Source: Marinobacterium marinum (lineage in GTDB: Bacteria > Pseudomonadota > Gammaproteobacteria > Pseudomonadales > Balneatricaceae). Taken from it: a DNA stretch of 64,000 nt. The stretch covers positions 1-64,000 of the forward strand of contig NZ_JACEMT010000029.1 of assembly GCF_013868415.1 (NCBI RefSeq). The letters are read 5' to 3'. The stretch's first letter is position 1, and the number at the start of each line of letters is the position of its first letter. Positions 29,998 through 51,986 of the stretch are shown piece by piece. The position numbers were made by a program, and so were the translations under genes. The notes under the pieces were generated by a model. It saw nothing but the letters and a program-made list of their open reading frames with translations, made no database searches and was not told the DNA's origin.

Positions 29998-30003
29998 TAG
30001 AGC

Positions 30004-30549: not shown

Positions 30550-30654
30550 CATTAAACAGCAGCACTGCAAACAACTGAAAGAACAGAACCACACCCGGCG
30601 ACACCGGCGGGCGTTGATGAATAGATGGCTACACGACAAGGGAGCACGCACAGG

Positions 30655-33600: not shown

Positions 33601-34119
33601 GCCTTCCACGGCCCCATTCAGACCGAAGTGGAGGCCATTATCGATCAGCGCTCCCTGCTGGCCGAGCCCAACCCGGTAACGGGCCTGATTCAGCAGCTGG
33701 TGGCCAAGCTGCGGGAAGCGATCCAGTTCCATGTTAAAGCCTACCTGAACCGCCACGCCGAGTGTCTGGCGCAACTGCAGGCGGACAGCCACTGGCAGCA
33801 GCTGGATGAGCCGCAACAGAACCAGATTCTGGCCAAGCGCAAACTGCTGACTCTGGATGAACCCGCACTCAACGATGCTGAAGCCATTATCGACAGCCTG
33901 AATGACGTCAGCCTGGAGTTGTGGAGCGAACGTACCGACTCCCTGACCGGCAAGTTCGACAGCGCACGTGTGGAAGCGGTGGAGCTGCTGCAGCCCAAGT
34001 TGCAACGGATCAACCTGCCCAAAACCACCTTTGAATCCGAGGCAGATCTGGATACCTGGCTGGAACAGGTGAAACAGCAGGTACTCGATAAACTGAATGA
34101 AGGACCGGTGACATTCTGA
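30655..34119 (+). CDS. brxC: BREX ATPase BrxC (PglY-like)
   Basis: A protein of about 1154 residues. Walker A GFFGSGKSH lies at about residues 77-85 and Walker B LVVLDEVQQY near 262. A long C-terminal helical region follows. BrxC is the large P-loop ATPase of type I BREX. I chose the ATG at 30655 (MLNRDIYQLD) because GGGAG lies 9 bases ahead and the domain begins immediately after; the frame also has an ATG at 30625. The stop overlaps the pglX start (TGATG), so the two are coupled. Confidence 0.93.
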   Translation: MLNRDIYQLDPQQNRLENNGVAEVKDDQSAQALKTLRYELQTFVCDGEYEAGLDKILSAYLRNLGDGHEQPGVWISGFFGSGKSHLAKMLRALWTNQPFGDGVSARDIADLPQEIKDHFKELSIAAGRHGGLHAASGTLGAGANNNVRLALLNIIFKSAGLPEQYHQTRFVLWLKKEGILEQVKAQVEADDDVWEDELEDLYVSRSIARALMQADDTLASDVKEMRQLLKMQYPQANDVTNQQMVDAIHDALAQNGQFPLTLVVLDEVQQYVGDDTGKAHQVQEVVETCCKHSIFENKLLFVATGQSALSGMPNLQRLLGRFQIPIQLSDTDVESVIRKVILQKKPSAQSELDAVIKTNLGEISRQLRGTKIEHHQDDEQVMLADYPLLPVRRRFWEKVLRIVDTTGTASQLRNQLKVIHEAAQATADQPLGHVVPADFIYNQITVNLQQTGVISKEIAEAIGRLSAGDEDEQFKSRILALVLLIGKLPTDPTADCGVRATADMLADLLIDDLNSGKEAIRNRVPKLLQALADEGLVMPMETSVGTEYRLQTQESAQWYDTLRQEEADLRGNQQRIENIRVDLLHKELRQQIAQVRLTQGNCKEPRTVYPCFDPELPRDAADKIYAWVQDGWSVDEKHFLADARSRNPGEPTIFIHVPARNRSELNNAIVTEHAAQTTLDKRGMPNTDAGKDARTAMETRHRDAQKQVKTLLREIFDGVQVLQAGGNEVEGNSIAERIETAARASLVRLYRDFDQADHAGWGKVFDRAGKEGGQNALEAVGHSDEPEKHPVCAAIKRFIGVAKKGSEIREHFLAAPYGWPQDAIDGALFVLLASGILLAEDARSNPVAVTKLERKQITQTNFKPESITIRPVDLIKIRGLLTASGIENQPGEEAAKLPLLAEKGRELAQKAGGEAPLPAKPDTKLFDELARQSGNTQLKYALDEQDAIKQAIKAWAETAQRIEARRPEWTQLQELLALSKGLAFHGPIQTEVEAIIDQRSLLAEPNPVTGLIQQLVAKLREAIQFHVKAYLNRHAECLAQLQADSHWQQLDEPQQNQILAKRKLLTLDEPALNDAEAIIDSLNDVSLELWSERTDSLTGKFDSARVEAVELLQPKLQRINLPKTTFESEADLDTWLEQVKQQVLDKLNEGPVTF

Positions 34120-37100: not shown

Positions 37101-37640
37101 CAGAACCGCCCCTTTATCTGGCATGTGTGGGATGGCCTGAAAGACGGCTTCAGCGCCCTGGTCAACTACCACCAGCTGGACAAGGCCGGGCTGGAGCGCC
37201 TGATCTACACCTACCTGGATGACTGGATCCGCACTCAGAAAGTGGGCGTGGCCAACGGCGAAGACGGTGCCGATATCCGTCTCGCTGCGGCAGAAACCCT
37301 GAAAACCGAGCTGGAAAAGATCCTCGAAGGCGAAAAGCCCTACGATATTTTCGTGCGCTGGAAACCGCTGGCGGAACAACCCATCGGCTGGACCCCCGAC
37401 CTCAACGACGGCGTGCGCCTCAACATCCGCCCCTTCCTGCTGGCCAAAGACCTGGGCAAAAAAGGCGCGGGTATCCTGCGCTTCAAACCCAACGTCAAAT
37501 GGACCAAAGATCGCGGCAAAGACGTGCCCTCCGCCCCCTGGTACCACCTGGGTTTGCAATACGACGGCAAAGAAGGCGATCGTATCAACGAACATCATCT
37601 GAGCCTGGCTGAAAAGCGTGCAGCCCGGAATGAGTCATAA
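34119..37640 (+). CDS. pglX: BREX adenine-specific DNA methyltransferase PglX
   Basis: An 1173-residue methyltransferase that marks host DNA at a non-palindromic adenine motif and is needed for BREX restriction. SAM-binding motif I LDPCCGSGHFL lies at about residues 312-322, and the catalytic motif IV reads NVPY at about 510 rather than the usual NPPY. Residues about 665-827 (36115-36600) form a target-recognition-type segment with distinctly lower GC than the rest. The C-terminal half is large, as in other PglX. The start ATG overlaps the brxC stop. Confidence 0.94.
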   Translation: MSIFNHTRQPLERTLRKALETTVGKAREVAEQAATQALTRLSVGEAKPADYLNDAQRNLRNRLRAHGRQLGDSKQDNGQQGIRKLVTEVAYEHWHRMLFARFLEQNSLLMYDEHTPLTLAECNELVQEPDIARDELEARCTTGWELAGVLASKMLPQIFRIDSPVFELELAPEHQRTLEKLVTGLAPDTFQAQDSLGWVYQFWQSKRKEEVNKSEVKIGADELAPVTQLFTEPYMVSFLLDNSLGAWWVGKRLSDTDFTNAQSEQELRDKAAIPGVPLNYLRFVKDDTTQQWQPASGTFDSWPQQLSELKTLDPCCGSGHFLVAAFLMLVPMRMELEQLTAQQAIDRVLSENLHGLELDQRCVELAAFAVAMEAWRFPEAGGYRSLPELHLACSGLSITAAKEEWKELSRKAGKQNLTIALDWMYQTFKDAPVLGSLINPRRSKAAQIAQWSELQQLLGEALSQEQAQEQDAADAGSSDINNRVEAGIVAQGLAKAAELLAGQYTWVITNVPYLARGKQSDTLKAFCEEYYPEGKNDLATVFLDRCLEFCVKGGTSSIVLPQNWLFLTSYRKFREKLLQNDSWHLIARLGAQAFQTPMWDFNVQLITLSRGNSAGQSVDLLNSGEPGNCIRGVDVSEPRTAAEKAAGLLADEVKSVEQGKQLENPDASVMLETKSRGELLTKYARSFTGLQTGDDFQFARMFWEIAHVRAPEWLKCQGSPSAKTTYQGRSRVIRWENGKGALVASPSAYIRGQDAWARKGISVQTMGDLNCSLFNEASFDMNASVLVPFEDQNRTAVWCFISSPEYVAEVRKVNQKLRVADATLAKVPFDLDYWTKVAEEQYPNGLPEPYTNDPTQWIFHGHPCGSVIWDEESKWTAQGELRVDDTVLQVAVARLLGYLWPAELDKDMEVAEEQRAWVLRCKDLEEHVDNDGIVCLPPVYGEKAADQRLEALLEDAYGQAWTTPLKNRLLDTVGSKSLSLWLRDKFFEQHCKLFQNRPFIWHVWDGLKDGFSALVNYHQLDKAGLERLIYTYLDDWIRTQKVGVANGEDGADIRLAAAETLKTELEKILEGEKPYDIFVRWKPLAEQPIGWTPDLNDGVRLNIRPFLLAKDLGKKGAGILRFKPNVKWTKDRGKDVPSAPWYHLGLQYDGKEGDRINEHHLSLAEKRAARNES

Positions 37641-37667
37641 TCAGGTAAACCAACGGAGCATACGGGT

Positions 37668-39377
37668 ATGTCGATGAACTTTAATACCACCAACAGCACC
37701 TTTCGCCAGCTGCTGGGCAATGGCCTGAGCTACCGTGTGCCTCCGTTTCAGCGCGATTATTCCTGGACCGATGATGAGTGGGATGATCTCTGGCAGGATG
37801 TGATAGCCCTGTTTGAAGAAGACGGTGAACCTGCCCACTATATGGGCTACCTGGTGCTGCAGTCCTCCGATAGCAAACGCTTCGATATCATTGATGGCCA
37901 GCAGCGGATTACCACCCTGAGCGTGATGATTCTGGCGGGGTTGGCTTATCTGCAGGATCTGGTCGGTGCAGGCCAGGATGCGGATAACAATCGTCGCCGT
38001 AAGGAACATCTGCAAAACAGTTATATCGGTTATGTGGACCCGGTCTCGTTAGTGCCACGCTCCAAGTTGGAACTGAACCGGCACAACAACCGCTTTTATC
38101 AAACCTATCTGGTGCCTCTGGAGCGGATGCCTCAGCGTAATCTGCACGCCTCCGAACATCAGCTGCGTAAGGCATTTAACTGGTTCAAGGAGCGATTCAG
38201 CAGTCGCTTTGGGCGCACGACAGAGAGTGGACAGCAGTTTGCCGCCATGCTGGATGCACTGGTTGATAAGCTTTTTTTTACCGTGATCACGGTGACCGAT
38301 GAGCTGAATGCCTTCAAGGTATTTGAAACCCTGAATGCCCGTGGTGTAAGGCTTTCCGCTACGGACCTGCTGAAAAACTACCTGTTCTCTCTTATCAGCA
38401 GTGGCGAACTGCATGAAGTCGAGATGAAGTCGCTGGAAGAGCGTTGGGAGCGCATTGTGGGGCTGCTGGGTAGCGAGAGTTTCCCGGAGTTTCTGCGCGT
38501 GTTCTGGAACAGTCGTAATAAGCTGGTGCGCAAATCCGACCTGTTTAAAACCATTCGCCGCCGTATCGCCACAAGGGAAAATGCTTTTGGCCTGGTGCGG
38601 GAACTGGACCATTCTGCCGAGACCTATGCCGCGCTGCGAGACCCTATGCATGATGGCTGGAATCGTGATGAACGCGAGGCCCTGCAACAGCTGATGATGT
38701 TTAATGTCCGTCAGCCACTGGCGATGTTGATGGCCTGTTACCAGCGTTTCTATGACCAGGAGCGAGCCAGTTTCAGTCGGATATTGCGCGCGGTATCAGT
38801 TGTATCACTGCGTTACAACGTCATTTGTGGTTTCCAAACCCACGAGCAAGAGCGTGTCTATAACGATATTGCCCGTAAGCTGACTGAGGGCGATTACACC
38901 AGCCTGCAAGATGTGCTTGAGGCTTTGGGCGATGTTTACCCGGATGATAGGACGTTTAAAACGGCCTTTACCGCCAAGACACTGAAAACCACCAATAGCC
39001 GAAACAAAAAGGTGGTGCGCTATATCCTGTTCGCGTTGGAGAAACAGCGCTCCGAGCAGGACTTTGACTTTGAAAGCAGTGCCTACAACCTGGAGCATAT
39101 TCTACCGGAAAGCCCGTCTGAAGCCTGGAACTATATGGATGAAAACCAGCAGGAGCGTTGTATCTACCGTCTGGGTAACATGACCCCGATGGAAGCGGGT
39201 GATAACCGTGATTTGGGCAATGCCGGGTATAACGAGAAGCGGGATGTCTATCGTAACAGTCAGTTCCAAATTACTCGGGGTGTCGCCGAACGGTATGATG
39301 AGTGGAACGAAGCCAAGATAGAAGCACGGCAGAAAAATCTGGCTGAGCTTGCTGCGACTGTCTGGAAAATCAATTGA
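37668..39377 (+). CDS. GmrSD-type DUF262/DUF1524 endonuclease (first copy)
   Basis: A 569-residue fused protein. The N-terminal DUF262 carries IIDGQQRITTLS at about residues 74-85 (GmrS-type ParB-like NTPase motif). The C-terminal DUF1524 HNH is EHILPESPSEAW at about 475, then RLGNMTPMEAGDNRDLGNAGYNEK. GmrSD-type enzymes cleave modified phage DNA (type IV restriction), and a BREX-linked member (BrxU) is known. It is placed between pglX and pglZ, which suits a partner handling phages with modified DNA. The gene starts 28 bp after pglX. Confidence 0.88.
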   Translation: MSMNFNTTNSTFRQLLGNGLSYRVPPFQRDYSWTDDEWDDLWQDVIALFEEDGEPAHYMGYLVLQSSDSKRFDIIDGQQRITTLSVMILAGLAYLQDLVGAGQDADNNRRRKEHLQNSYIGYVDPVSLVPRSKLELNRHNNRFYQTYLVPLERMPQRNLHASEHQLRKAFNWFKERFSSRFGRTTESGQQFAAMLDALVDKLFFTVITVTDELNAFKVFETLNARGVRLSATDLLKNYLFSLISSGELHEVEMKSLEERWERIVGLLGSESFPEFLRVFWNSRNKLVRKSDLFKTIRRRIATRENAFGLVRELDHSAETYAALRDPMHDGWNRDEREALQQLMMFNVRQPLAMLMACYQRFYDQERASFSRILRAVSVVSLRYNVICGFQTHEQERVYNDIARKLTEGDYTSLQDVLEALGDVYPDDRTFKTAFTAKTLKTTNSRNKKVVRYILFALEKQRSEQDFDFESSAYNLEHILPESPSEAWNYMDENQQERCIYRLGNMTPMEAGDNRDLGNAGYNEKRDVYRNSQFQITRGVAERYDEWNEAKIEARQKNLAELAATVWKIN

Positions 39378-39431
39378 GTAGCTTTCTAACATTGATACTT
39401 GGTTTGGAGTGGCCTGTGGCGGAGATTAAAG

Positions 39432-40709
39432 ATGTTTAAAGAACTTAAATTGACCAATGTCGGCCCTGCACCCTCTATGGAGCTGGAATTTGGCAAGCGT
39501 CTTAATCTGATCACAGGGGATAATGGTCTGGGCAAAAGCTTCCTGCTGGATATCGCCTGGTGGTCGATGACCCGCAAGTGGCCGTCTGAAATCAATCCCA
39601 AGCTGACCGTGGGGAAAAAGGTTCAGCCCCAACGCAAGGGTGAATCGTCCATCAGCTTCTCGTTTTCGGGCAAGGTGAAAGAGGTTAGCTACGAAAGCAC
39701 CTATCAGCGCAGGGAAGAAGCCTGGACAGGCAATGCCGGTCGTCCGGCGAATCCTGGCTTGGTGCTCTATGCCATGACCGATGGCAGCTTTGCCGTATGG
39801 GACCCGTCGCGCAACTATTGGCAGACCCGCAACGGTATAGATGTGCAGGAGCGCCGCCCGGCCTATGTCTTTGCACCCGATGAGGTATGGCATGGCCTGA
39901 AAGCCGAAGATGGCACTGTTTTGTGTAATGGCCTGGTACAAGACTGGGCAACCTGGCAGAAGGAAAAAGGCGCGGCGTTCAGGCACCTGGTCAAGGTACT
40001 GAAAGTGCTGTCGCCCTCTGATAAAGAGGAGCTACAGCCGGGTGACCTGACGCGCATCAGCCTGGATGAAGCCCGCGATATTCCGACGATCCGTATGCCC
40101 TATGGCCAGGACGTTCCGGTGGTCCATGCGTCATCCGGTATCCGCCGTATTATCGCGCTGGCTTATTTCCTGGTCTGGGCCTGGGAAGAGCACCGCAAGG
40201 CCGCCGACTTGTTGCAGGAAGATCCGACCCATCAGGTGGTATTTCTGATCGATGAAGTAGAGTCGCATCTGCACCCCAGCTGGCAGCGCAGCATCATTCC
40301 GGCGCTGTTGTCTGTCATGGAGCAGCTTACTCGGCGTCCTGATGTGCAGTTGATTACCGCTACCCATTCGCCGCTGATCATGGCATCCGTCGAGCCGGTT
40401 TTCGATCCTGCACAGGATGCCTGGTTTGATCTGGACCTTGAGCAGGGGGAAGTGAAACTGCGGCAGCGTGACTTTGAGCCGATGGGAGATGCTTCAAACT
40501 GGCTTACCAGTGAAGCCTTTGATTTGGAAAGTTCCGGCTCGCTTGCTAATGAGCGACTGATTAAGGAAGCATCCGAGCTACTTGAAAAAGATACGATCTC
40601 CAAAACCGAATTTCAGGAGATGAATACCAGGCTTGTTAGGGCATTGAATCCGGCTGATGATTTCTTGTTCAACTGGCGCTATATCTGTAAGTCCAAAGGA
40701 CTCATGTGA
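39432..40709 (+). CDS. AAA/SMC-type ATPase (Septu PtuA-like)
   Basis: A 425-residue ABC/OLD-like ATPase: an early MFKELKLTNVGPAPSMELEF strand, Walker A GDNGLGKSFLLD near residue 31, then signature-like VVHASSGIRRIIALAYFL, Walker B VVFLIDEVESHLHPSWQR near 270 and TATHSPLIM. GGAG precedes the ATG at 39432; the open frame to 39399 has none. It is coupled to the HNH gene by ATGTGATG overlap. The ATPase plus HNH pairing is that of Septu (PtuA-PtuB). The link is by architecture, not by search. Confidence 0.8.
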   Translation: MFKELKLTNVGPAPSMELEFGKRLNLITGDNGLGKSFLLDIAWWSMTRKWPSEINPKLTVGKKVQPQRKGESSISFSFSGKVKEVSYESTYQRREEAWTGNAGRPANPGLVLYAMTDGSFAVWDPSRNYWQTRNGIDVQERRPAYVFAPDEVWHGLKAEDGTVLCNGLVQDWATWQKEKGAAFRHLVKVLKVLSPSDKEELQPGDLTRISLDEARDIPTIRMPYGQDVPVVHASSGIRRIIALAYFLVWAWEEHRKAADLLQEDPTHQVVFLIDEVESHLHPSWQRSIIPALLSVMEQLTRRPDVQLITATHSPLIMASVEPVFDPAQDAWFDLDLEQGEVKLRQRDFEPMGDASNWLTSEAFDLESSGSLANERLIKEASELLEKDTISKTEFQEMNTRLVRALNPADDFLFNWRYICKSKGLM

Positions 40710-41305
40710 TGATTCCAGTTAAATTACAGCCAGAGCCAGAGAGCTTTGACGAGGAGGTACGCCAGCCTGGGCTTGCCTGGTTGGATAAAAAAGGGATCGA
40801 TTTACAGAGTGCTCCACCCGAGCCGAGTAAACTTCCGGCGTATTGGCAAAAGACCAACGAGCAGCTGTGGGAAGCCTACTCAGGCGTTTGTGCCTACCTG
40901 GCTATCTACTTCGAGTGGGTATCAGGAGCATCATCCACGGACCATTTCATACCCAAGTCGGCCCTCGCGGGTGATGCTTACGAGTGGTCCAACTATCGTT
41001 TGTCCTGTTTGGGGCCAAATCGCTCCAAGAACGCATTCACCGATCTACTTGATCCTTTTGAGATACAGCCAGATACATTTGTTTTGAACCTGGCAAGTGG
41101 TGCTATAAAGCTTAATCCGGAACTGGATAATGCTGTGGCAGAGGTCGCTGCGACGACAATCTCGCGTTTGAATCTCGATAGTGAACAGCACCGAAAAATG
41201 AGAAGTAGGGCTTTTACCCGTTACCTTCGCAGAAAAGATGAAGAAAGTCTGAAAGAGCTATCACCCTTCGTTTGGTACGAAGCGAACCGCCAGGGACTGC
41301 TATGA
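40709..41305 (+). CDS. HNH endonuclease (Septu PtuB-like)
   Basis: A 198-residue protein with an HNH core: CAYLAIYFEWVSGASSTDHF, then IPKS, then YEWSNYRLSCLGPNRSKN. The DHFIPKS, N-Y-R and N-x3-N residues fit the DH-N-N pattern of HNH nucleases. It starts within the ATPase stop (TGATG). An alternative GTG is at 40706. Its stop overlaps the pglZ start (ATGA at 41302-41305), so all three genes are coupled. Moderately lower GC than pglZ. Confidence 0.8.
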   Translation: MIPVKLQPEPESFDEEVRQPGLAWLDKKGIDLQSAPPEPSKLPAYWQKTNEQLWEAYSGVCAYLAIYFEWVSGASSTDHFIPKSALAGDAYEWSNYRLSCLGPNRSKNAFTDLLDPFEIQPDTFVLNLASGAIKLNPELDNAVAEVAATTISRLNLDSEQHRKMRSRAFTRYLRRKDEESLKELSPFVWYEANRQGLL

Positions 41306-43620
41306 AACTGATCGACCTGCTGGCGGAGGAAGTCCGTGCCAGCGCCGCCTATAACTCCAATATCCAGATGGCACCGAGCGTTATTCTCTGGACTGACAAG
41401 CAGCGCCAGTGGGAATCCGCCTTGCCGCTGCTGCAGGCCGCCATGCCGGAGCTGGTGGTGCTGGGCGACTATGCCCCCGAGCAGAAGCGCGGACCGGCCA
41501 TCTGGATCAAGTGTGTCATCGAAGGTGTGTTGCCGGAAGTGCAGTTGCCGCAGGATCGTACCCCGATTCTGTATTTGCCAGGTGTAGAGCGCCGCGACTT
41601 GCGTGCGATTGCCGATTGCCCCGATATGCTCAAGCCTTTGGCTGAGCTGCAGTATCGCGGCTGTTGGTGGATCTACAACAACACCGGCCGTGACTGGACG
41701 GTCAATGCATTCCTGATATCGGCCAATGGCGGTGCCGGTCTGGATGTGGCCAAGGATGACAAGTCGCAGCAGGCGATGCTGCGGGTACTCACCGAAATAC
41801 TGGAAAGCGAGCGCGAAGACCTTGCCAACCGCCGCCTCGAAGCGCCGGACTTCAATAAGCTGGTGTCCAGTGATCCGGTGCGTGACCTACTTAGCTGGAT
41901 GAATGACAGCAAAGTATGCCGTGAACGCTGGGATGCACCCCGTTGGCAGGCCCTGGTGGGTATCTGCGAGACTGAATATCACTTCAGTCCGGAACGCGAT
42001 GGCGAACTGACGGCAGCGGAGTTGCTGTGTCAGCGCCAGGGTGTTTGGGAGAGTGTGTGGCAGCGTTATGCCGAGTCCTGTCACCACTATCCCAATTTGC
42101 CGGATCTGCTGATGAAGGTGCAGCCCGATCTGGCCGCTGATGGTGCCAGCTATCCGGTGATCAATGCCGATGATGAACAGCGGCTTGAGCAGGACCTGAG
42201 CCAGCTGTTGTCACTGGACTCAGCCCAGGTGCGCCAACAACTGCTGCGACTTGAACAGCGTCACGCCGAGCGTCGTACCTGGATCTGGTCACAGTTGGGG
42301 CAGGCACCCTTGGCGGGTGTAATGGAGTTTGTGAGCCAGATCGCCGAGCGTACACAGCAGGTGTTCTCCGGTATTGATGCCGAAGAGATGGCTGAACTTT
42401 ATCGCCAAGAATATTGGCAGGTGGATGACTTGGCGCTCAAGGCATTGGCTTACCCACTGTCCAATGGGCAACAAGCGCTGGTGCAGCAACTGCTGGCGCT
42501 GATTTACACCCCCTGGCTGGATGAAGTGACTCGTAATTTCCAGAATCTGGTGAAAGCCAAGGGCTATCCGGGTGTTGGTCAGGTGAGCGAAGCCACGGCG
42601 GCTTATGCACCGGGCGGTGAGGTGGTCTTCTTTGTGGATGGCTTGCGCTACGACATCGCCCAGCGACTGGAGCAGATGTTGGTATCCAGGGCGAATATCA
42701 AATTGTCATCCAACTGGGCAGCCTTGCCTTCAGTAACCGCGACGGCCAAAGCTGCTGTTACCCCTGTCCATGACAAGCTGACGGGACGGGTGTCCGATCG
42801 GGATTTTGAACCCAGCCTGCTGGATGAGGATAAGGATTTTTCGGCCTATTACCTGAAGAAGTTTCTCAAGGAAAAAGGCTGGGTGTACTTGGAAGAGGGC
42901 GAGACGGGCGATCCGTCCGCCAATGCCTGGGTGCAAAGTGGTGATATCGACAAGGAAGGCCATGTTAAAGGCCTGAAACTGGCGGCGCGCATCGACACGC
43001 TGCTGGAAGAAGTGGTTGAGCGGGTCGATGAACTCCTGGCTGTGGGCTGGCGCAAGATTCGTATCGTAACCGATCATGGCTGGGTACTGACACCCGGCAC
43101 CATGTCCAAGGTGGATCTGACCAAACACCTGACCGATACCCGCTGGGGCCGTTGTGCCGTGATCAAGGATGCGGTGGATACAGGCTATCTACAGCTGGGC
43201 TGGTACTGGAACAAGGATGTCAGCATCGCCATGGCCCCCGGCATCAGCAGCTTCAAGGCAGGCCAGCATTATGACCACGGTGGTTTGAGCCTGCAGGAGT
43301 GCCTGACGCCCATCATCGAAATCAGCAGCAATCAGCAAGTCCAAACGGGTCCAAGTGCGACGGCGGCCCTGTCTGACCTGCGCTGGCTGGGGCTGACTTG
43401 TAAGGTCCAGGCAGAAACGGGTGCCGATGGCGTGGTGGCTGTGCTGAGAACGCATGCGGCGGATGCAGACTCTGAGATCTGCAAGCGCAAACCACTCAAG
43501 GGCGGCAAGTGCAGCCTGATGGTGGATGACGACTTTGAAGGCATGACAGCCGTACTGGTGCTGCTGGATGAAAGCGGCAATGTACTGGCGAAAAAGCCGA
43601 CCCTGGTTGGTGACGAATAA
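41302..43620 (+). CDS. pglZ: BREX phosphatase-like PglZ
   Basis: A 772-residue PglZ protein with an alkaline-phosphatase-like core: VVFFVDGLRYDIAQRLE at about residue 441, SNWAALPSVTATAK, and VTDHGWVLTPG near 590. PglZ is a core BREX component required for both methylation and defence. The ATG at 41302 overlaps the HNH stop; the longer frame to 41272 is not used. The family length is normal (700-900). Confidence 0.95.
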   Translation: MKLIDLLAEEVRASAAYNSNIQMAPSVILWTDKQRQWESALPLLQAAMPELVVLGDYAPEQKRGPAIWIKCVIEGVLPEVQLPQDRTPILYLPGVERRDLRAIADCPDMLKPLAELQYRGCWWIYNNTGRDWTVNAFLISANGGAGLDVAKDDKSQQAMLRVLTEILESEREDLANRRLEAPDFNKLVSSDPVRDLLSWMNDSKVCRERWDAPRWQALVGICETEYHFSPERDGELTAAELLCQRQGVWESVWQRYAESCHHYPNLPDLLMKVQPDLAADGASYPVINADDEQRLEQDLSQLLSLDSAQVRQQLLRLEQRHAERRTWIWSQLGQAPLAGVMEFVSQIAERTQQVFSGIDAEEMAELYRQEYWQVDDLALKALAYPLSNGQQALVQQLLALIYTPWLDEVTRNFQNLVKAKGYPGVGQVSEATAAYAPGGEVVFFVDGLRYDIAQRLEQMLVSRANIKLSSNWAALPSVTATAKAAVTPVHDKLTGRVSDRDFEPSLLDEDKDFSAYYLKKFLKEKGWVYLEEGETGDPSANAWVQSGDIDKEGHVKGLKLAARIDTLLEEVVERVDELLAVGWRKIRIVTDHGWVLTPGTMSKVDLTKHLTDTRWGRCAVIKDAVDTGYLQLGWYWNKDVSIAMAPGISSFKAGQHYDHGGLSLQECLTPIIEISSNQQVQTGPSATAALSDLRWLGLTCKVQAETGADGVVAVLRTHAADADSEICKRKPLKGGKCSLMVDDDFEGMTAVLVLLDESGNVLAKKPTLVGDE

Positions 43621-43637
43621 GGTTAGGAGAGAGACGC

Positions 43638-45686
43638 GTGGAACTGGATGCTCTGGATAACAAGGCCGCAGACGTTTTTGAAGGCTATATCGTGCGCAAG
43701 GATCTGGTGCGGACCTTTGCCCGCCAGTTTCCGGTCCCGACCTATGTGGTCGAGTTCATGCTGGGACGCTACTGTGCCTCCACCGATCCCGAGGAGATCG
43801 AAGAGGGTCTGGAAATTGTTCAGCGCCAGCTGGCCTCCCGCACTGTACGTGCCGGTGAAGAGGAGTTGTTCAAAGCCCGTGCCTATAAGAAAGGTGCAGC
43901 CAAGCTGATCGATATCGTCAGTGTTCGCTTTGTCGAAAAAGAGGGCGGTTACGTCGCTTCTCTGCCCAGTCTCAATCTCAACCGCGTGCGCATTGCCGAC
44001 AAGATTGTCGATGACAATGAACGCCTGCTAACGGGCGGCTTTTATGCCGAGGTCACGCTGGAGTATGACCCCGTCATTGCTGAAGAGAAGGGTAACGCCT
44101 TTGGTATCGCCGAGCTGCGCCCTATCCAGATGTCCAAGCGTAACGTGCTGGATGTGATGGCCGAGGCGCGCGGTCGATTTGATAGTCATGAATGGCGTGA
44201 CTTTTTGATTCGCTCCATTGGCCTTGAGCCTGAAGCCCTGTCTGACCGTGCCAAGGACTCCATTCTTTTGCGAATGGTGCCCTTTGTTGAGCGCAACTAT
44301 AACCTGGTGGAACTGGGGCCACGTGGTACCGGTAAGAGCCATCTGTTCCAGCAGGTATCGCCCTATGCGCACCTGATCTCGGGCGGCAAGGCGACCATTG
44401 CCAAAATGTTCGTCAACAACGCCTCTGGACAGCGGGGGTTGGTATGCCAGTATGACGTGGTCTGCTTTGATGAAGTCAGCGGGATCTCTTTTGATAGCAA
44501 GGAAGGGATCAACATCATGAAGGGCTACATGGAATCCGGTGAATTCAGCCGTGGCAAGGAGAGCATCCGTGCCGATGGTTCCATGGTGTTTGTGGGTAAC
44601 TTCGACGTGGATGTGGAGCATCAACAACGGGTTGGTCATCTGTTTGGCCCTCTGCCCCAGGAGATGCGTGATGACACGGCCTGGATGGACCGTATTCATT
44701 GCTACCTGCCCGGTTGGGATGTGCCCAAGATGAGCAAGGAGCTAACCACAGACCACTTTGGTCTGGTCAGTGATTTCTTCTCTGAGTGCATGAGCCGTTT
44801 GCGTTTCCAAAGCAGGGTGGCGGCCATGCAGAACCGTGTGCATCTCGGCGGGGCGTTGAGTGGCCGAGACACCAATGCGGTGAATAAAACCGTTTCCGGC
44901 CTGCTTAAACTTATGTACCCCGACCCCGAAATGCAGGTGTCCGATGAGGATCTGGAGTGGGCGACCCGCCTGGCCTTGGAAGTACGCCGCCGAGTGAAAG
45001 AGCAGCAGAAACGAGTCGGTGCAGCTGAGTTTCGTAATACTCATTTCAGCTATTTTATCGGTGACGATGGTATTGAAAAGTTTGTTGCCACACCCGAATT
45101 ACGTGCCGACAACGAGATCGGTGATGATCCGCTTGAACCGGGTCAGATCTGGACGATTAGCGAAGGCGGTACCGATTTCGATGACAATGCCGGTCTCTAT
45201 CGCATCGAAGTAAACGAAGGCCCTGGATCTGGCGTGAAAATCCTGAATAACCCGGCACCCCCGGCCTTTAAGGAGTCCATGCGCTATGCTGAACAGAACC
45301 TCTATGCGCGTGCCCAGCAGCTGATCGGCGATCGTGATCCTCGAGCTCATGAATTCACTGTCCAGCTAAGAGCTTTTGATGCCGCCAAGAAAGGCTCCAA
45401 GCTAGGTGTAGCAGCCCTGGTTGCCATGTGTAGCAGCATGCTGAAAAAATCAGTGAAAGGTGGCCTGATAGTGGTGGGCGAGATCAACCTGGGTGGTTCC
45501 ATCGAGCCGATCAGTAATGCCGTGAATATTGCAGAGCTGGCGGTAGAAAAAGGCGCCAGTGCCTTGCTGATGCCAGTGACTGCCAGACGTCAGCTTTATG
45601 ACTTGTCAGATGAGATGGCGACCAAGGTTGATATTCAGTTTTATCAGGATGCGAGAGATGCACTGCTGAAAGCGCTTGCTGAATAA
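43638..45686 (+). CDS. brxL: BREX Lon-like ATPase BrxL
   Basis: A 682-residue protein starting at GTG with GGAGAG upstream. AAA+ region: Walker A GPRGTGKSH at about 229-237, Walker B VVCFDEVSGI near 276, then MVFVGNFDVD. The C-terminal Lon-like part is KGGLIVVGEINLGGSIEPISN, then NIAELAVEKGASALLMPV. BrxL forms an oligomeric motor on DNA and is essential for type I defence but not methylation. A clear Ser-Lys protease dyad is not obvious in the C-terminal domain. Confidence 0.95.
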   Translation: MELDALDNKAADVFEGYIVRKDLVRTFARQFPVPTYVVEFMLGRYCASTDPEEIEEGLEIVQRQLASRTVRAGEEELFKARAYKKGAAKLIDIVSVRFVEKEGGYVASLPSLNLNRVRIADKIVDDNERLLTGGFYAEVTLEYDPVIAEEKGNAFGIAELRPIQMSKRNVLDVMAEARGRFDSHEWRDFLIRSIGLEPEALSDRAKDSILLRMVPFVERNYNLVELGPRGTGKSHLFQQVSPYAHLISGGKATIAKMFVNNASGQRGLVCQYDVVCFDEVSGISFDSKEGINIMKGYMESGEFSRGKESIRADGSMVFVGNFDVDVEHQQRVGHLFGPLPQEMRDDTAWMDRIHCYLPGWDVPKMSKELTTDHFGLVSDFFSECMSRLRFQSRVAAMQNRVHLGGALSGRDTNAVNKTVSGLLKLMYPDPEMQVSDEDLEWATRLALEVRRRVKEQQKRVGAAEFRNTHFSYFIGDDGIEKFVATPELRADNEIGDDPLEPGQIWTISEGGTDFDDNAGLYRIEVNEGPGSGVKILNNPAPPAFKESMRYAEQNLYARAQQLIGDRDPRAHEFTVQLRAFDAAKKGSKLGVAALVAMCSSMLKKSVKGGLIVVGEINLGGSIEPISNAVNIAELAVEKGASALLMPVTARRQLYDLSDEMATKVDIQFYQDARDALLKALAE

Positions 45687-45798
45687 AGCCGAGTAATCGA
45701 GGCCAATCCCATCATTTCGCATATAAAATATTCAGGAATATTTGAGGCGTTCAGGCACTCAGTCCTTGCAAGGGCGCTTAAAGCGGGGAAAAGGATTT

Positions 45799-47589
45799 AT
45801 GGCCAAATACGAAGTAAAACAAACGGCAGTCAGTCAGGTACTGTCAGATGTGCGCAGTGACAAGATCGCAATACCGGAGCTGCAACGCCCGTTTGTCTGG
45901 AAGACCTCCCAGGTCAGAGATCTGATGGACTCCTTATACAACGGCTACCCAGTGGGATATCTGATTACTTGGCAATCAGTGGGTGCGAAACTAAAAGGTG
46001 GGCAGGTCGCTGCACATCAGCAAATCCTGATCGATGGCCAGCAGCGTGTAACGGCGTTGCGTGCTGCAATCGCGGGCCAGCCTGTGGTGGGCAAGCGGTA
46101 TGAGAAGAAACGTATCGCCATCTCTTTCAATCCACTAACGGAAGAGTTTGCGACTCGCACCCCGGCTATCAGCAACAGCAGCCAGTGGATTCACGATATC
46201 AGTGAGTTCTTTTCCGGCAGTAGTCAGCTGACTTTCCTGCGCAAGTATTTCGATAAGAACCCTGATGCGGATGAGGGGCAAGTGGAGGCGGCGGTAGCCA
46301 GGCTGGCCGGAATAGAGCATGCCCAGGTGGGGGTGATCTCGCTTGCGGACAACCTTGATGTCGATACCGTGGCTGAGATCTTTGTCCGTATTAACGCCAA
46401 GGGCGTCCCGCTGTCCAGTGCGGATTTCGTGATGAGTAAGATTGCTACCTATGGCGATGAGGGTCGCAACCTGCGTAAGTTGATCGATTACTTTTGCCAC
46501 CTGTCGGTATCCGGGCATGCCTTCGAAGACATTCGTGAGAACGACGAGGAATTCAGTGCGTCGGCGCACCTAGACAAGATTCAGTGGCTGAAAAGCCAAT
46601 CTGATGAGTTGTTCCAGCCGGAGTACACAGATGTTATCCGCATTGCCGGTCTGGTCGGCTTTTCCCGCGGTAAGGCGGCGGCCATTGTCAGCGAGCTGGC
46701 CGGATTAGACCCCGAAACGCGCAAGATCGATGAAACCCGAATACCGGACGCCTACGCACGCTTCGGCCATGCACTCGATAAGATAGTGAGCAGGACCCAT
46801 TTCGAGCGTTTCGTCATGATGATCAAGTCGGCAGGCTTTATTGATGCAAGCATGATCGGCTCCAAAAACGCACTGAACTTCGCTTATGCCTTGTATCTGC
46901 GGCTGCGTGACAATGATCAGCTTTCGGAAGGGCAGCGCTCTCAGCTGGTCAAGCGCTGGTTTGTGATGACACTGCTAACTGGCAGGGCTGTGGGCAGTTT
47001 TGAGTCCACCTGGGAAACCGACCTGCGCCGAATTGAAGAGCAGGGGGCGACCAAGTACCTGCGCCTTATCGAAACATCCGAGTTAGGCGAGGGATTCTGG
47101 GATGTAACATTGCCACAGGAGCTGGTATCACCCAGCAAACGCAGCCCGGCATTTCAGATTTTTCTGGCCGCATTGGTGAGTAAAGGTGCCCGAGGTTTTC
47201 TCTCCAAGTCGATCAATGTTGCCCAGATGATCGAGGGGCATGGTGATATGCATCATATCGTGCCAAAGAATCACCTCATCAAGAACGGTTACCCGAAACA
47301 GGGTGACTACAACCAGGTGGCGAATTTCGCGCTCACGGAAACCCCAATCAACATTGCTATTAAGGACTACCCGCCGACAGAGTACATGGCATGGCTGGAA
47401 GGGCAGATTGATACGGGTGTGCTGAAGTTGGGTGAGATTACCCAACGGAGTGATCTGGACGCCAACATGGCCGAGAACGCGATACCGGCGTTTATCCGTG
47501 AGGTGAACGCGGATAACTACCCTGCGTTTCTTGAAGCGCGACGTAAGCTGATGGCCCGCGTGATTCGGGAGTACTACCTGGCGTTGTAG
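45799..47589 (+). CDS. DUF262 protein with HNH-like C terminus (second copy)
   Basis: A 596-residue protein. DUF262: RPFVWKTSQVRDLMDSLYNGYPVGY, then LIDGQQRVTALRAA at about 78. The C-terminal part MHHIVPKNHLIKNGY with VANFALTETPINIAIKDYPP is an HNH-like end different from DUF1524 of the first copy. The ATG at 45799 has AAAGG upstream; the frame extends to 45742. It is the first of the genes added after brxL. It may be a second modification-dependent nuclease. Confidence 0.85.
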   Translation: MAKYEVKQTAVSQVLSDVRSDKIAIPELQRPFVWKTSQVRDLMDSLYNGYPVGYLITWQSVGAKLKGGQVAAHQQILIDGQQRVTALRAAIAGQPVVGKRYEKKRIAISFNPLTEEFATRTPAISNSSQWIHDISEFFSGSSQLTFLRKYFDKNPDADEGQVEAAVARLAGIEHAQVGVISLADNLDVDTVAEIFVRINAKGVPLSSADFVMSKIATYGDEGRNLRKLIDYFCHLSVSGHAFEDIRENDEEFSASAHLDKIQWLKSQSDELFQPEYTDVIRIAGLVGFSRGKAAAIVSELAGLDPETRKIDETRIPDAYARFGHALDKIVSRTHFERFVMMIKSAGFIDASMIGSKNALNFAYALYLRLRDNDQLSEGQRSQLVKRWFVMTLLTGRAVGSFESTWETDLRRIEEQGATKYLRLIETSELGEGFWDVTLPQELVSPSKRSPAFQIFLAALVSKGARGFLSKSINVAQMIEGHGDMHHIVPKNHLIKNGYPKQGDYNQVANFALTETPINIAIKDYPPTEYMAWLEGQIDTGVLKLGEITQRSDLDANMAENAIPAFIREVNADNYPAFLEARRKLMARVIREYYLAL

Positions 47590-47760
47590 GCAGGTTGCCT
47601 ATGGCTGTATGAAATGCCCTGAAGCGGTTGATGTACGTAGAGGCAAAAAGTGGCGAAGCACCTAACTGTATGGTGTCGTCAATGTAAGCTACAGTAATTT
47701 TTTGGATTCTCTGTCTGAGGTTGTAGCTATTTTCGGAAAAGCCAAAAATAAGGAAGTTCA

Positions 47761-48828
47761 ATGCCAACATTAAACTGGATTCAGGAAACAGGCTGGGATC
47801 GATACTGGGAAAGAGGCTCCGATGGTTGCGAGTCTATCGACCGCACGTATACCTGCAGGGTATGCGGTAAAATTTTCGATTCGCTGGAGCTTCGTGACGC
47901 TCATGAGGTGGAGCATCCGGTATCAAATCCGACAATATTTGTTGATGGGAAGGAAATTTGTGGAGAACGGCTAAACATTACTGATCCCATCACTACTGAT
48001 GGTTTACTGTTGCGTGATATTGACACATTGGTTGTTAACGGAGAGGTGCTCGATACGCCGCAGGAGCTGGTTGACAGAATCTCAGCTGATAATCTGGCGT
48101 TTTTACATGTCCGTTATGGCAATGCTAACAGTGTGCGACAGCTCAAGATTAATATCTGTGTTGCGGACCAAGAAGAATTAGAACAAGTTGGTAATATTTT
48201 CTGTCAGTATTTTGAAGTTAATGGGCTTAATCCGAAAGCTATCGTGTCCTTTACGGAAAAAGTAAAAAAATTCAAAACTGTTCAGCTCTATTGTGATGGG
48301 CTGGTTCGCTACCTTCAGGGTCTGATGGCAAAGGATAACCGAGCTGATGCTGAGCCATTTGACGTTTTCTTGGAGCGTTTTAATCAGGCTTCTCAAGCGT
48401 TGAAGTATTACGACACAGAACTCTCCCATGCTGTTCGGTCGGTAATTGATTTTAATCGAAATGACTTCGCTGCAGTCAGTAAGACTGGTCTTCCTTTACT
48501 TGATAGTGCTACAGAATTTTTTAATGGTAAGGAACTTGCTAAGTCCGACCACGAACTAGGAAGTAGATCACTTCCAGTGGATTATGCTACTGAGATAATT
48601 GTTTCAACTCTTCTTGATTATTACAGAAATGGTTCGCTTGATAATATTCGGAAGGAAGTGAATAATTTCCCATTAAAACATCTTTCGTTACAGGATAAAA
48701 TGAAATTCAACTATATACTCTATCGAAAGCTTCTTAAGGTTGGCGATATTGAATCTGCTCAAAATTATAAGAAAAAGCTATCGTTTGATGATGCGTTTTC
48801 AGAAATGGTAGGGCCTATTGATGAGTGA
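47761..48828 (+). CDS. C2H2-type zinc-finger protein, module partner
   Basis: A 355-residue protein with an N-terminal C2H2 finger (YTCRVCGKIFDSLELRDAHE: C32, C35, H48, H52), rare in bacteria. A beta-rich segment (about 55-145) and a helical C-terminal half (about 160-350) follow; no other domain is recognised. GGAAGTTC precedes the ATG. The end of the gene overlaps the next start (ATGAGTGATG), so it is coupled to the coiled-coil and Hsp70-like genes. AT-rich C-terminal half. Confidence 0.65.
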   Translation: MPTLNWIQETGWDRYWERGSDGCESIDRTYTCRVCGKIFDSLELRDAHEVEHPVSNPTIFVDGKEICGERLNITDPITTDGLLLRDIDTLVVNGEVLDTPQELVDRISADNLAFLHVRYGNANSVRQLKINICVADQEELEQVGNIFCQYFEVNGLNPKAIVSFTEKVKKFKTVQLYCDGLVRYLQGLMAKDNRADAEPFDVFLERFNQASQALKYYDTELSHAVRSVIDFNRNDFAAVSKTGLPLLDSATEFFNGKELAKSDHELGSRSLPVDYATEIIVSTLLDYYRNGSLDNIRKEVNNFPLKHLSLQDKMKFNYILYRKLLKVGDIESAQNYKKKLSFDDAFSEMVGPIDE

Positions 48829-50143
48829 TGCTAAAAGCGGAATAGGGGGAGGGGGTGATAAAATAAGGAGCATGCTTTCTCTGAGAAAAAAAGAAGATAT
48901 AGCTGTAGAAAAACCTGTAGCGAAAATAGAAAAAGACAGAGCCCTGGTAGAGGAAAAAAATGAACTTGAAACTGAAAATAAAAAGAAATCAGAAAATCGC
49001 TCTGTAAAAGGATGTGAGCCAAAAAAAACGGCACAAGATATCCTTTTGGGCGCATTTTCTAAACAGCATGATAAGGACGGGAGCATTAAACCGGCCAAAA
49101 TCACCAAGCGGGATCTGAAGAGCCTTAACTCCTTGAATACCCACGAGGTTCTAACAAGGGAGCTGGTTAACTCTATAGCCGAAGCGGCGGCGCTGACGGA
49201 TCCATCTCTGGATTGCTTGGCAGAACTGGCCTTGAGTGTGACAGATGAAAGTGAGGGCGACTGGCAGCAAGCGCTTTTTACATTCTGTGTTCAAGTGGCC
49301 AGTGGTGTCTGGATTCATAAGCATACAGGGTCTGTTGATCTATTCAGGGATATTTTTGTTGAGCATAACAACCGTGATGATTGGCCGAACATTCTTGAAT
49401 ACAGCCTGAGTCAAAAGTACCAAAAGCGTATAGCAGGCCTTAAAAGTCGGGAGACATTCCAAAGTTCTGGCGAATCTGAGGCGCTAGAACCTGTATCTGG
49501 CCTCAGTAGCAGAGAGCAGCAGAAAACGCTGGAGAAGCAACATCGCAACTTGCTGTTAATTGGTGTTTTGTGGTTGCTCAATGAAAGTAAGTGCGACCTT
49601 CGTGACATCATCGGCTACCTAAATGAATCGGTGGTAATAGACCACGGCTCTAAAGCGACATTGAAAGATGTTTCTCTACTTCTTGCTGGGCAATGGTTGT
49701 CACCGAGTTCCCGGGTGATCCGTTTATTGGCCATGCAGGCTGAGCAGCGCACGCAACTTGAAGATGACCTGAAGCGCACCGAAAAACTGATGCTGCAAAA
49801 AGACCAGCAGATAGAGCAACTAAGATGTGATCTAACGGCCAAGAAAAATGAAGTTCAGCGTGCGATTACAGAAGCACAAAATTACCAAACAGCACTGGAA
49901 GAGCTTAAGAAGCAAGCGGAAGATCAGCAGCTGGATGCACGTGCCGCACGCACCCATTTGAGAGATAACGAAGGCAAGGTAAGAGCCAAGGCGTTCAACT
50001 TGCTTTCAGAGGAGGTGTTGGAGCCGTTGCGCCTCTCCCTTTCAGCATTGCAACGCGAGAATCCGAAGACCAAGGTGGCGATACATCAAATTGAGTTGGT
50101 GGTTGAAAGCATTGAGAGGGATTTGCAGTGGTTCAAAGAGTAG
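48821..50143 (+). CDS. coiled-coil protein, module partner
   Basis: A 440-residue protein. The N terminus is low-complexity and charged (GIGGGGDKIRSMLSLRKKEDI). A helical mid-region (about 90-290) is followed by a long coiled coil at about 306-382 (AEQRTQLEDDLKRTEKLML; QQIEQLRCDLTAKKNEVQRA). It overlaps both neighbours: its start lies in the zinc-finger gene end and its stop lies inside the first codons of the Hsp70-like gene. It may be the co-chaperone or substrate-presenting subunit. A GrpE-like nucleotide-exchange role is one guess, because of the coiled coil next to an Hsp70; this is inference. Confidence 0.6.
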   Translation: MSDAKSGIGGGGDKIRSMLSLRKKEDIAVEKPVAKIEKDRALVEEKNELETENKKKSENRSVKGCEPKKTAQDILLGAFSKQHDKDGSIKPAKITKRDLKSLNSLNTHEVLTRELVNSIAEAAALTDPSLDCLAELALSVTDESEGDWQQALFTFCVQVASGVWIHKHTGSVDLFRDIFVEHNNRDDWPNILEYSLSQKYQKRIAGLKSRETFQSSGESEALEPVSGLSSREQQKTLEKQHRNLLLIGVLWLLNESKCDLRDIIGYLNESVVIDHGSKATLKDVSLLLAGQWLSPSSRVIRLLAMQAEQRTQLEDDLKRTEKLMLQKDQQIEQLRCDLTAKKNEVQRAITEAQNYQTALEELKKQAEDQQLDARAARTHLRDNEGKVRAKAFNLLSEEVLEPLRLSLSALQRENPKTKVAIHQIELVVESIERDLQWFKE

Positions 50144-51918
50144 GAATTGACTTCGGTACAACCAATAGCCTGATCTCGGTGGTGACCCGGGGAAATCGTA
50201 TTAAATCGTTCGATGACACGGGGCGGCCTCACCCTTCCGTGGTTCGTTATGAGGGTGACAGGGTTATCTGCGGGAAAATAGCCCGGGATAAACTCGAACA
50301 GCTGGGTATTGGGGTATTGGGCAATACGGTAAGGGGCCCCAAAAAACTGATCAGTAACGAAACCATTAACGTTGAAGGGCGCTTGATGACTCCGGTTGAT
50401 GTGATTGGAGAGTACATCCGTTATCTGATTGATGATGCGCGAGAAAACGATTCGGAACAGGTTGCGGACCTGACCCGAGCCGTTGTCACTATACCGGTCG
50501 CTTTGGATGGCAGAGGGCGCAAGACGCTGCGAGAAGCCTTGATGACGGCTGGTGTGTACGTGGATGCGTTTGTGCACGAGCCATTGGCTGCACTTTACGG
50601 ATACTTCAGGGACCAAGAGCGCTTCGAGGAAACGATCCGATCTTACGATGAGCGTATGGTTCTCGTGTTTGACTGGGGCGGTGGTACGCTGGATTTGACC
50701 CTGTGCAAGATTGTCGATGGGTGTCTGGTACAGGTCTTGAACCGGGGCAACAATCTGGTTGGGGGCGATTACCTAGATGAGGCCATACTGACTTATGTGA
50801 TTCGTGAGCATGAAAAGAAGCACGGCTGGTCATCAGAAACGGCACTTCCGGTAAATCCAGGTATGAAGTCCAAGCTGTTAGCGCAATGTGAAAGAGCCAA
50901 GATCACTCTTTCTACACGAGACGAAACCAGTATCTTTCTTCCAGACTATTTCCAAGGCGAAGGTGATGAGGCCGAGATTGAAGTTTGGTTGGACAGGACT
51001 ACCTTGGAGTCCATTTGTAAGCCCTTGGTGAATCAAGGGATTGAAGAGATTAGCTCACTGCTGGCTCAGGACCAAGCAAATGTCGACCCACAAACCATAG
51101 CACTCTGTCTGGCGACAGGCGGCATGGTCAATATGCCCTTGATTAAGTCGCGGTTGACGGAAATTTTTGGTGTGTCGGCCTTGCACATATCACCTAAGGG
51201 CGACCGAATTATCTCAGAAGGTGCAGCATGGATTGCCAGCGATGGGGTAGAGCTGGCACTGGCAAAGCCATTTGAGCTTGTAGAAGCTCGCAACTCATTA
51301 CTGACCATAATTCACCAAGGTACTCGTCTTCCCGCAAGAGGAGAGTCTATACAGATACCTCAGGCCATGTATTGCTCTGATCCGAGAGATGGTAAGGCCA
51401 TTTTTACGTTCAAACGCCCTCAGATGGTCAACAAATCGGCGGCAGCGGATCCGCGAACCACCTACGGTAGCCTGGTGGTCGAAATTAACCCGGACTTTCC
51501 TCCTCTGGAAGAGCGTATTCAGCTGCAGGTCACTATAGATGATGACCTGATTGTGCATTGTGAGGCTGTTGGTGAAGACTATCAGCAGGCAAGAAGTATC
51601 GATTTCTACGATCTGGAGTTCTCGGTCAATGCAGTTCCTGGGTTCAACAGTGCAGGTAGTAAAAAAAAACGGACGAAAATCTCTCCATCTAGGAATGGGC
51701 TAAAGCAGTTAGTGGCTAAAGCGAATGTATCTCCAAATAAGAATGATTGGTCTACGGTACCTGGGGAGCTACTCAAAGAGTTTAATGACCGATATATATA
51801 CAGGCAGCAACCTATGACTGAGATACAAAATCTGGAGTATGTTCGTTATCAGCCATGTTCGAATTGTGGTGCCAAGTGGGTTAAAAACTGCTGCTCCAGT
51901 GCTCTAGGCGTCAGCTAG
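50128..51918 (+). CDS. Hsp70/DnaK-like ATPase
   Basis: A 596-residue actin-fold chaperone. Phosphate 1 motif VGIDFGTTNSLIS lies at 5-17, VFDWGGGTLDLTL at about 181 (phosphate 2), and an ALCLATGGMVNMPLI motif (adenosine) near 331. The substrate-binding part is short, and the C terminus has CSNCGAKWVKNCCS, a zinc-like cluster not found in DnaK. The start is GTG with GAGAGGG upstream. It is not accompanied by dnaJ or grpE. Coupled third gene of the trio; an island-specific, possibly sensing, Hsp70. Confidence 0.85.
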   Translation: MVQRVGIDFGTTNSLISVVTRGNRIKSFDDTGRPHPSVVRYEGDRVICGKIARDKLEQLGIGVLGNTVRGPKKLISNETINVEGRLMTPVDVIGEYIRYLIDDARENDSEQVADLTRAVVTIPVALDGRGRKTLREALMTAGVYVDAFVHEPLAALYGYFRDQERFEETIRSYDERMVLVFDWGGGTLDLTLCKIVDGCLVQVLNRGNNLVGGDYLDEAILTYVIREHEKKHGWSSETALPVNPGMKSKLLAQCERAKITLSTRDETSIFLPDYFQGEGDEAEIEVWLDRTTLESICKPLVNQGIEEISSLLAQDQANVDPQTIALCLATGGMVNMPLIKSRLTEIFGVSALHISPKGDRIISEGAAWIASDGVELALAKPFELVEARNSLLTIIHQGTRLPARGESIQIPQAMYCSDPRDGKAIFTFKRPQMVNKSAAADPRTTYGSLVVEINPDFPPLEERIQLQVTIDDDLIVHCEAVGEDYQQARSIDFYDLEFSVNAVPGFNSAGSKKKRTKISPSRNGLKQLVAKANVSPNKNDWSTVPGELLKEFNDRYIYRQQPMTEIQNLEYVRYQPCSNCGAKWVKNCCSSALGVS

Positions 51919-51986
51919 GGTTGCTTCAGTAGTGAATGGACATGGATTTATAAAATTCAGCAGAGGCTGTAAAAGGAGAAATCAGG

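Follow-up and report, generated by a model that had tools for sequence, protein, structure and literature searches.

Why would a bacterial defence island carry a C2H2 zinc-finger protein, a coiled-coil protein and an Hsp70 in three overlapping genes? This question is raised by a 64,000-nucleotide stretch of Marinobacterium marinum DNA (contig NZ_JACEMT010000029.1, positions 1 to 64,000; hereafter the window), for which an earlier note, made from the letters alone, had proposed the three genes, here called ZNF, CC and HSP, as a candidate new system. The answer that we favour, with a probability of roughly 0.45, is that the trio may be a mobile Hsp70 machine, self-contained and with co-factors of its own, which would remodel or license large DNA-targeting defence complexes. 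The features of the trio are as follows (aa, amino acids; nt, nucleotides; ORF, open reading frame).

47761..48828, + strand: ZNF, ORF of 355 aa
48821..50143, + strand: CC, ORF of 440 aa, ATG at 48821
50128..51918, + strand: HSP, ORF of 596 aa, GTG start
48821..48828, + strand: overlap of ZNF and CC, 8 nt, ATGAGTGATG = ATGAGTGA
50128..50143, + strand: overlap of CC and HSP, the GTG start of HSP lying 16 nt inside the CC gene
51841..51915, + strand: Cys-rich tail of HSP (PCSNC...NCC), a possible zinc site judging by the Cys pattern in relatives

As the earlier note had claimed, the genes overlap at both junctions, by 8 nt and 16 nt. It had read these overlaps as strong evidence of one complex; they are a mark of translational coupling and alone are not evidence of a complex, for which the co-variation described below is better evidence, also indirect.

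Using a three-genome HSP alignment as a profile, we scanned genome and viral contigs and found the order ZNF-CC-HSP at 26 loci from seven bacterial groups (Gamma-, Beta- and Alphaproteobacteria, Actinomycetota, Chloroflexia, Cyanobacteria and Verrucomicrobia), some of the hosts being metagenome-assembled. Absence of the trio as a unit from other genomes had been set beforehand as one refuting observation, and the unit is present at these 26 loci, a count in which the near-duplicates L015/L025 and L021/L022 each figure twice and a Halomonas contig (L007 = L018) once. The ZNF and HSP profiles matched in order at 23 loci (the window, L008, L011-L025, L034 and L091-L095), and at 17 of these a match to the CC profile lay in between. 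At L021-L024, L094 and L095, the gene in the middle is not matched by that profile, yet it occupies the same slot and has 4-nt overlaps at both ends. As for the other loci, L096 on a Paenarthrobacter plasmid carries all three genes with an IS3 transposase gene separating ZNF from CC, L026 carries the trio in order with ZNF identified through its profile (E = 2.5e-7) and CC through its position, and L027 is assigned by the C2H2 pattern, position and HSP profile only. The HSP gene is interrupted or truncated at L020 and L095. With starts taken from the longest ORFs, the ZNF/CC junction overlaps at 17 of the 23 loci; the CC/HSP junction also overlaps at 17, the other six having a gap of 1-4 nt.

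The trio is rare, since searches with HSP found only the source genome and one other both in a phylum sample of 398 genomes (HSP profile) and in a class sample of 369. CC alone is a poor query for finding it: the class sample returned the source genome and one coiled-coil fragment (L002/L010), which was dropped, the order sample returned two others, L004 being an unrelated coiled-coil protein, and the viral contigs gave no match. A search for the trio DNA in E. coli genomes and one for the CC protein in plasmids likewise gave no match.

The three genes are inherited together. We compared tree distances at 19 loci by the Mantel test, leaving out L020, L022, L025, L026 and L091 (truncated, near-duplicate, distant or partial), and obtained correlations of 0.97 for ZNF-CC, 0.95 for ZNF-HSP and 0.92 for CC-HSP; none of 5000 permutations reached the observed values, the best being 0.57.

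We then tallied defence genes around the 26 loci, the tallies covering the scanned neighbours only, as some neighbours were unscanned. BREX-1, Hma, McrB-like or DruE genes adjoin the trio at 17 of the 26. Type 1 BREX was found at seven loci (the window, L013, L014, L017, L018, L034 and L093), in six of which the trio lies between pglX and pglZ. It is the sole content called in that space in L013, L018, L034 and L093, shares it with a GmrSD-like gene in L014 and with Septu and two other genes in L017, and in L034 and L093 the HSP stop overlaps the pglZ start. Hma was found at five loci: the trio stands between hmaA and hmaB in L011, after hmaC in L024, divergent from hmaA in L023, between hmaC and a PDC-S39 gene in L027, and in L008 beside a 146-aa hmaA piece (13432-13869), 79% identical to L011, from a remnant Hma operon. 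McrB-like (AAA_5) ATPases occur at four loci (L021, L022, L094 and, weakly, L016), two of them labelled type II restriction enzyme by PADLOC, and L026 has a type IIG/DrmMI-like methyltransferase together with DruE. Defence-type genes of other kinds were seen at five loci, namely Septu only (L019), a type III CRISPR Cas7-like gene (L012), a Leo-like dynamin (L025), a RecD-like helicase (L095), and genes annotated as DUF262, GIY-YIG, helicase and methyltransferase (L096). At L015, L020, L091 and L092, no defence gene was recognised in the scanned neighbours. On the midpoint-rooted HSP tree, the BREX hosts are spread over three or more separate places, and so are the Hma hosts; this scatter suggests that the cassette probably joined BREX and Hma systems repeatedly.

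As a control, 37 loci with other Hsp70s were searched with 19 defence-protein queries, of which two gave matches: DruE-like genes at five Streptomyces loci and an HmaA-like helicase at three of those five. There was no match to the BREX, HmaB, HmaC or DrmA queries at the 37 loci. These loci are not clean negatives, and we therefore attach no P-value to the association of the trio with defence genes. Streptomyces Hsp70-like genes of another branch lie at most 10 kb from DruE-like helicases at L076, L078, L086, L088 and L090.

The window itself shows the following order.

30004..45686, + strand: type 1 BREX, with brxB, brxC, pglX, embedded GmrSD, ptuA and ptuB, then pglZ and brxL
45742..47589, + strand: single GmrSD_N (DUF262-type) gene between brxL and the trio (PF03235, E = 1e-29)

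ZNF-CC-HSP follows, outside the BREX operon. The neighbourhood is accordingly a defence island, as had been said, with BREX, GmrSD and Septu around the trio; its position downstream of BREX holds in that it comes after brxL, with the one GmrSD_N gene intervening.

HSP matches PF00012 (Pfam, E = 2.4e-43) and has the Hsp70 ATPase domain with its catalytic residues, as expected of a member of the Hsp70/DnaK family. When the HSPs were aligned to E. coli DnaK, D8, T11, T12, K70, E171, D194 and T199 were conserved in 23/23. The arginine network through which DnaK responds to J-domains (R167, N170 and linker D/N393) is absent from the 23 aligned HSPs: R167 is found in 0/23, with Gln at that position in 20, N170 is replaced by His and D148 by Gly in all 23, and linker position 393, Asp in DnaK, is Lys in 22. 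Published work describes R167 as invariant across 1560 DnaK sequences and as having a central part in the action of J-domains (PMC7289447), and position 393 as Asp or Asn, with D148 and N170 belonging to the interdomain network (PMC7289447, PMC4664246). With the catalytic residues kept and the R167 network altered, we infer that HSP should still cycle ATP and is unlikely to respond to DnaJ in the manner of DnaK. Other Hsp70 genes exist elsewhere in the genome, and the absence of a DnaJ near HSP, already remarked upon, is borne out by the four J-domain matches of the genome, all of which are on contigs other than that of the trio. The alignments further indicate that the first substrate loop of HSP looks shortened and that HSP appears to have no helical lid after the substrate-binding beta domain, a lid having no counterpart in the alignments. 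The window HSP ends in CSNC...NCC, and a CxxC...CxC tail or variant is present in 20 of 23 HSPs (missing in L020, L026 and L095), in agreement with the shortened C terminus and Cys cluster of the earlier note.

ZNF consists of a C2H2 finger (residues ~30-53), a beta-rich domain (58-133) and a helical C-terminal part (137-347), and its AlphaFold2 model has a mean pLDDT of 85.2 and a pTM of 0.77. The earlier note had spoken of C2H2 fingers in the plural; there is a single one. Its Pfam E-value is only 0.22 for the window protein, 19 of 23 ZNFs match a C2H2 model at E ≤ 1, and the C2H2 pattern occurs in 22 of the 23 aligned relatives, the remaining one being cut by a contig end. In the PDB profile search, too, C2H2 chains come first, a six-finger chain at E = 1.1e-16 and single fingers at ~0.002. 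CC has a disordered N terminus, a helical domain, a long helix (297-410) and a C-terminal hairpin helix (416-438), with an AlphaFold2 mean pLDDT of 73.3 and a pTM of 0.47; its PDB profile matches are coiled coils. Neither window protein has a significant match in Pfam, NCBIfam or PADLOC 2.0.0, and no nuclease or toxin domain was recognised in the three window proteins with these resources. The HPD motif of J-domains occurs in 0/22 CC and 1/23 ZNF sequences (L091), and the window proteins have no Pfam DnaJ match. For CC, there is also no Pfam match to GrpE, and the VIA-align listing holds mostly generic helices.

Fold searches with ZNF (PDB, VIA-align and BFVD) and CC (VIA-align) gave nothing beyond the stated chance range. 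A TPR assignment of the ZNF helical part was dropped, the best row (Rap TPR proteins, Z 8.3, rmsd 6.2, 197 aligned residues) lying within that range, as was a PDZ-like beta domain, for which there was a Foldseek row at E = 1.1 only and no PDZ in the 25 of 39 Pfam families shown for the 23 members. The CC tail has a weak PHROG match to a family without assigned function (phrog_23256, E = 3.4e-5); together with MT837149 (E = 5e-3) and two Arthrobacter phages (E = 0.02-0.04), this was considered too weak for phage mimics of the tail.

A FastTree tree of the ATPase domains was rooted on DnaK/HscA and did not include YegD-like and L030 Hsp70s; in it, the trio Hsp70s minus L026 form a clade of 22 (support 1.0), which grows to 25 with L026, L027 and L029 (0.91) and to 37 with 12 further sequences (0.955), apart from DnaK, HscA and 22 other Hsp70s. 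In most of the outer group, as judged by eye, the Hsp70 is preceded by a coiled-coil-like gene. At six loci (L030, which is not in the tree, L037, L042, L045, L072 and L084), the Hsp70 precedes a UvrD-like helicase and DrmA, the DrmA calls being from PADLOC for L042 and by similarity for the other five; an MZB (DrmB-type) domain is present in the expected gene at both Drm-associated loci tested. By its predicted gene content, the set of coiled-coil-like gene, Hsp70, UvrD-like helicase and DrmA is a conserved, DISARM-related operon with its own Hsp70. No homology is claimed between trio CC and the coiled-coil genes found in the Drm-associated pairs and in L026-L028 (hhalign probability 10% and 14%). 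We tentatively suggest that these Hsp70s may form a defence-dedicated clade, each with its own upstream coiled-coil co-factor and, in one branch, a C2H2 adaptor, interchangeable for BREX-1, Hma, Druantia-like, McrB-like and DrmA/DrmB systems; this would be a DnaJ-independent, ATP-driven remodelling layer, undescribed as such.

Other observations were made on these Hsp70s. L030, L037, L042 and L045 also have a DrmB-like gene and a further gene of 552-590 aa. L028 carries a tandem Hsp70 gene pair 3' of a coiled-coil-like gene (1515-4453), and the Hsp70 of L030 (1830-4175) has a long N-terminal extension, TPR-like in appearance. In L032, L035 and L039, from Seleniivibrio/Denitrovibrio-type genomes, a ParA-like gene overlaps by 4 nt with an Hsp70 gene of a different branch (L039 is outside the tree).

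How might such a machine work? According to the favoured explanation, HSP would hydrolyse ATP under the control of CC and ZNF, CC would substitute for a J-protein and/or exchange factor, and the ZNF finger and helical part would select the target, which could be a protein or a nucleic-acid site that infection has marked. The ATP cycle would then assemble, unlock or recycle the helicase/methyltransferase/ATPase complex of the partner or, alternatively, take apart a phage nucleoprotein complex and thereby clear the way for the partner. The proposals that ZNF is an adaptor and CC a co-factor are based on the order of the genes, the co-variation and the changes in the Hsp70. The explanation as a whole draws on the occurrence of the trio at 26 loci, its co-variation, the defence genes adjoining 17 of the loci and the repeated lodging in BREX and Hma, and also on the retained core residues, the loss of R167, the lack of HPD in 22/22 CC and 22/23 ZNF sequences and the lack of a recognised nuclease or toxin domain. 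These results suggest that some defence systems carry their own chaperone machine. How BREX and Hma complexes assemble, are triggered and spare the host is an unsettled question on which the trio bears; if the explanation is true, a J-independent Hsp70 between pglX and pglZ would make protein remodelling a control layer of DNA-targeting immunity, and the Hsp70 fold would have a new use with private co-factors.

Several points weigh against this explanation. The window trio lies outside the BREX operon, and four of the 26 loci have no recognised defence gene, so that a partner is not always evident; moreover, independent defences (GmrSD and Septu) likewise lodge between pglX and pglZ in the window. 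Co-inheritance of linked genes explains the co-variation as well as physical contact does, and the fold searches link neither CC nor ZNF structurally to co-chaperones. In HSP, E230 is replaced by Asp and K155 by Arg in all members, most have Asn in place of R345, and this alignment divides the sequences at D481, an interdomain-network position, into 11 with Asp and 11 with Asn.

The main rival, which we consider somewhat unlikely, is that the trio is a stand-alone defence, lodged in BREX and Hma operons merely for shared expression and transfer, in which ZNF or CC would recognise a phage product and remodelling or sequestration by HSP would block replication or cell growth. The many unrelated partners (with none recognised at 4/26 loci), the embedding of Septu and GmrSD in the same BREX operon and the several trio copies on mobile elements would all suit it, as would a report that a bacterial defence protein senses phage through host DnaJ (PMC12169576); however, an effector domain is not recognised in the three window proteins, and the systems next to 17 of the 26 loci belong to a narrow class. 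Because the trio of relatives is often inside another defence operon, a role as accessory module to BREX/Hma-type systems has at least the same likelihood as a system of its own. Both readings stand, the accessory role being the likelier, and of the proposed candidate new system, the single unit in a defence island holds, whereas an own defence system is not established. Alternatively, the Hsp70 could hold partner complexes inactive or fold their large subunits, limiting self-damage with no sensing of phage. Embedding and coupling with pglZ, the very large proteins encoded by the partners and the intact ATPase residues agree with such restraint or quality control, which nevertheless seems quite unlikely, given that loci with no recognised partner exist and that BREX/Hma-type partner systems also occur without the trio.

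It is more doubtful still that HSP binds RNA and guides a nuclease, as proposed for CnuD of the McrBC systems called CoCoNuTs. McrB-like ATPases adjoin 4/26 trios, and Hsp70-like domains, coiled coils and zinc sites are shared with CoCoNuTs as described in PMC11090510, but the core ATPase residues of HSP are intact in 23/23 whereas the CnuD motifs are given there as degenerate, and neither an McrB gene nor a HEPN domain was recognised in the scanned genes around the window trio. We give least weight to a passenger module on mobile elements with a general stress or replication role and no link to defence: several copies do have an integrase, recombinase or YfjJ-type gene as neighbour or are carried by a conjugative plasmid, yet at 17/26 loci the trio borders on BREX, Hma, McrB-like or DruE genes, in many cases within the operon, and DrmA genes follow sister Hsp70s.

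Further features surround the trio in the window. The GC content is 0.39 at 48000-48999, within ZNF and the beginning of CC, and 0.53-0.58 at 40000-44999, a fall that is consistent with separate acquisition; no promoter-like or terminator-like sites exceed those of shuffled sequences. Immediately 3' of the trio lies a gene for an NYN nuclease with an OST-HTH/LOTUS domain and a weak cold-shock match (E = 0.014; 52570-53511), and a tRNA-Arg gene (54085-54161) flanks the island on the right, its region having no exact repeat of at least 15 nt elsewhere in the window. Upstream of brxC, at 26145-30546, are a YfjJ-type gene, a CAP12/Pycsar TIR protein (27319-28215), a WYL regulator and brxB. GmrSD and the Septu PtuA/PtuB pair, the latter assigned through similarity to the Septu PtuA of L019, are embedded at 37668-41305 between pglX and pglZ.

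Finally, we compared the trio with known systems. ZNF, CC and HSP match none of the type 1 BREX core models (brxA, brxB, brxC, pglX, pglZ and brxL), and PADLOC-DB 2.0.0 gave no significant match, the best E-values being 0.0052 for the window trio and 0.00038 for ten proteins of relatives. HSP touches a single model there, the candidate PDC-M61B (E = 0.0052 for the window and 0.00038 for L015), marginally and over part of the ATPase domain, which does not amount to a match. No description of the trio was found in the open-access literature searched, supplements and a 2024 embedded-defence preprint being outside its scope; Hsp70, DnaK and chaperone are unmentioned in the main text of a 2026 BREX survey (PMC12839542; supplements outside scope), and these terms and BREX are unmentioned in the main text of the DefensePredictor paper (PMC13092281). 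The earlier note's statement that no described system matches is therefore upheld for PADLOC-DB 2.0.0, Pfam, NCBIfam and this literature. Judging by its sequences, the trio is a genuine Hsp70 module of defence operons that is undescribed within the literature and databases searched, a prior description being possible.

Among Hsp70s, HSP resembles DnaK and HscA in its ATPase domain with core catalytic residues and its substrate-binding beta domain, and differs from them in lacking R167, in altered N170, D148 and D393, in having no evident lid, in its Cys-rich tail and in its separate clade. It is also similar to an Hsp70-like phage/prophage family, PHROG 22485 (phrog_22485, function not assigned; E = 4.7e-34, residues 2-367), a likeness confined to the ATPase domain. 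The nearest described systems with Hsp70-like parts are CoCoNuTs, in which CnuD and McrB-Hsp70 fusions, coiled coils and zinc-binding domains have been described, and which have been reported in superoperons with BREX and Druantia III (PMC11090510). The likeness is that of an Hsp70-like protein in a restriction-type operon with coiled coils and zinc sites. CoCoNuTs are set apart by description, CnuD being absent from our tree: the ATPase motifs of CnuD are degenerate as described and the core residues of HSP intact in 23/23, no C2H2-CC-Hsp70 trio appears in the sections of PMC11090510 covered, and none of eight scanned window genes (41272-53511) is a homologue of McrB/CnuB or McrC/CnuC. With the genes embedded in BREX-1 and Hma, such as auxiliary nucleases, Septu and GmrSD, the trio shares the insertion space between pglX and pglZ and the range of several host systems (PMC12839542); that survey regards Hma as BREX-related and lists nucleases as auxiliaries. 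Whereas those embedded genes are nucleases or independent defences, the trio would be a chaperone machine.

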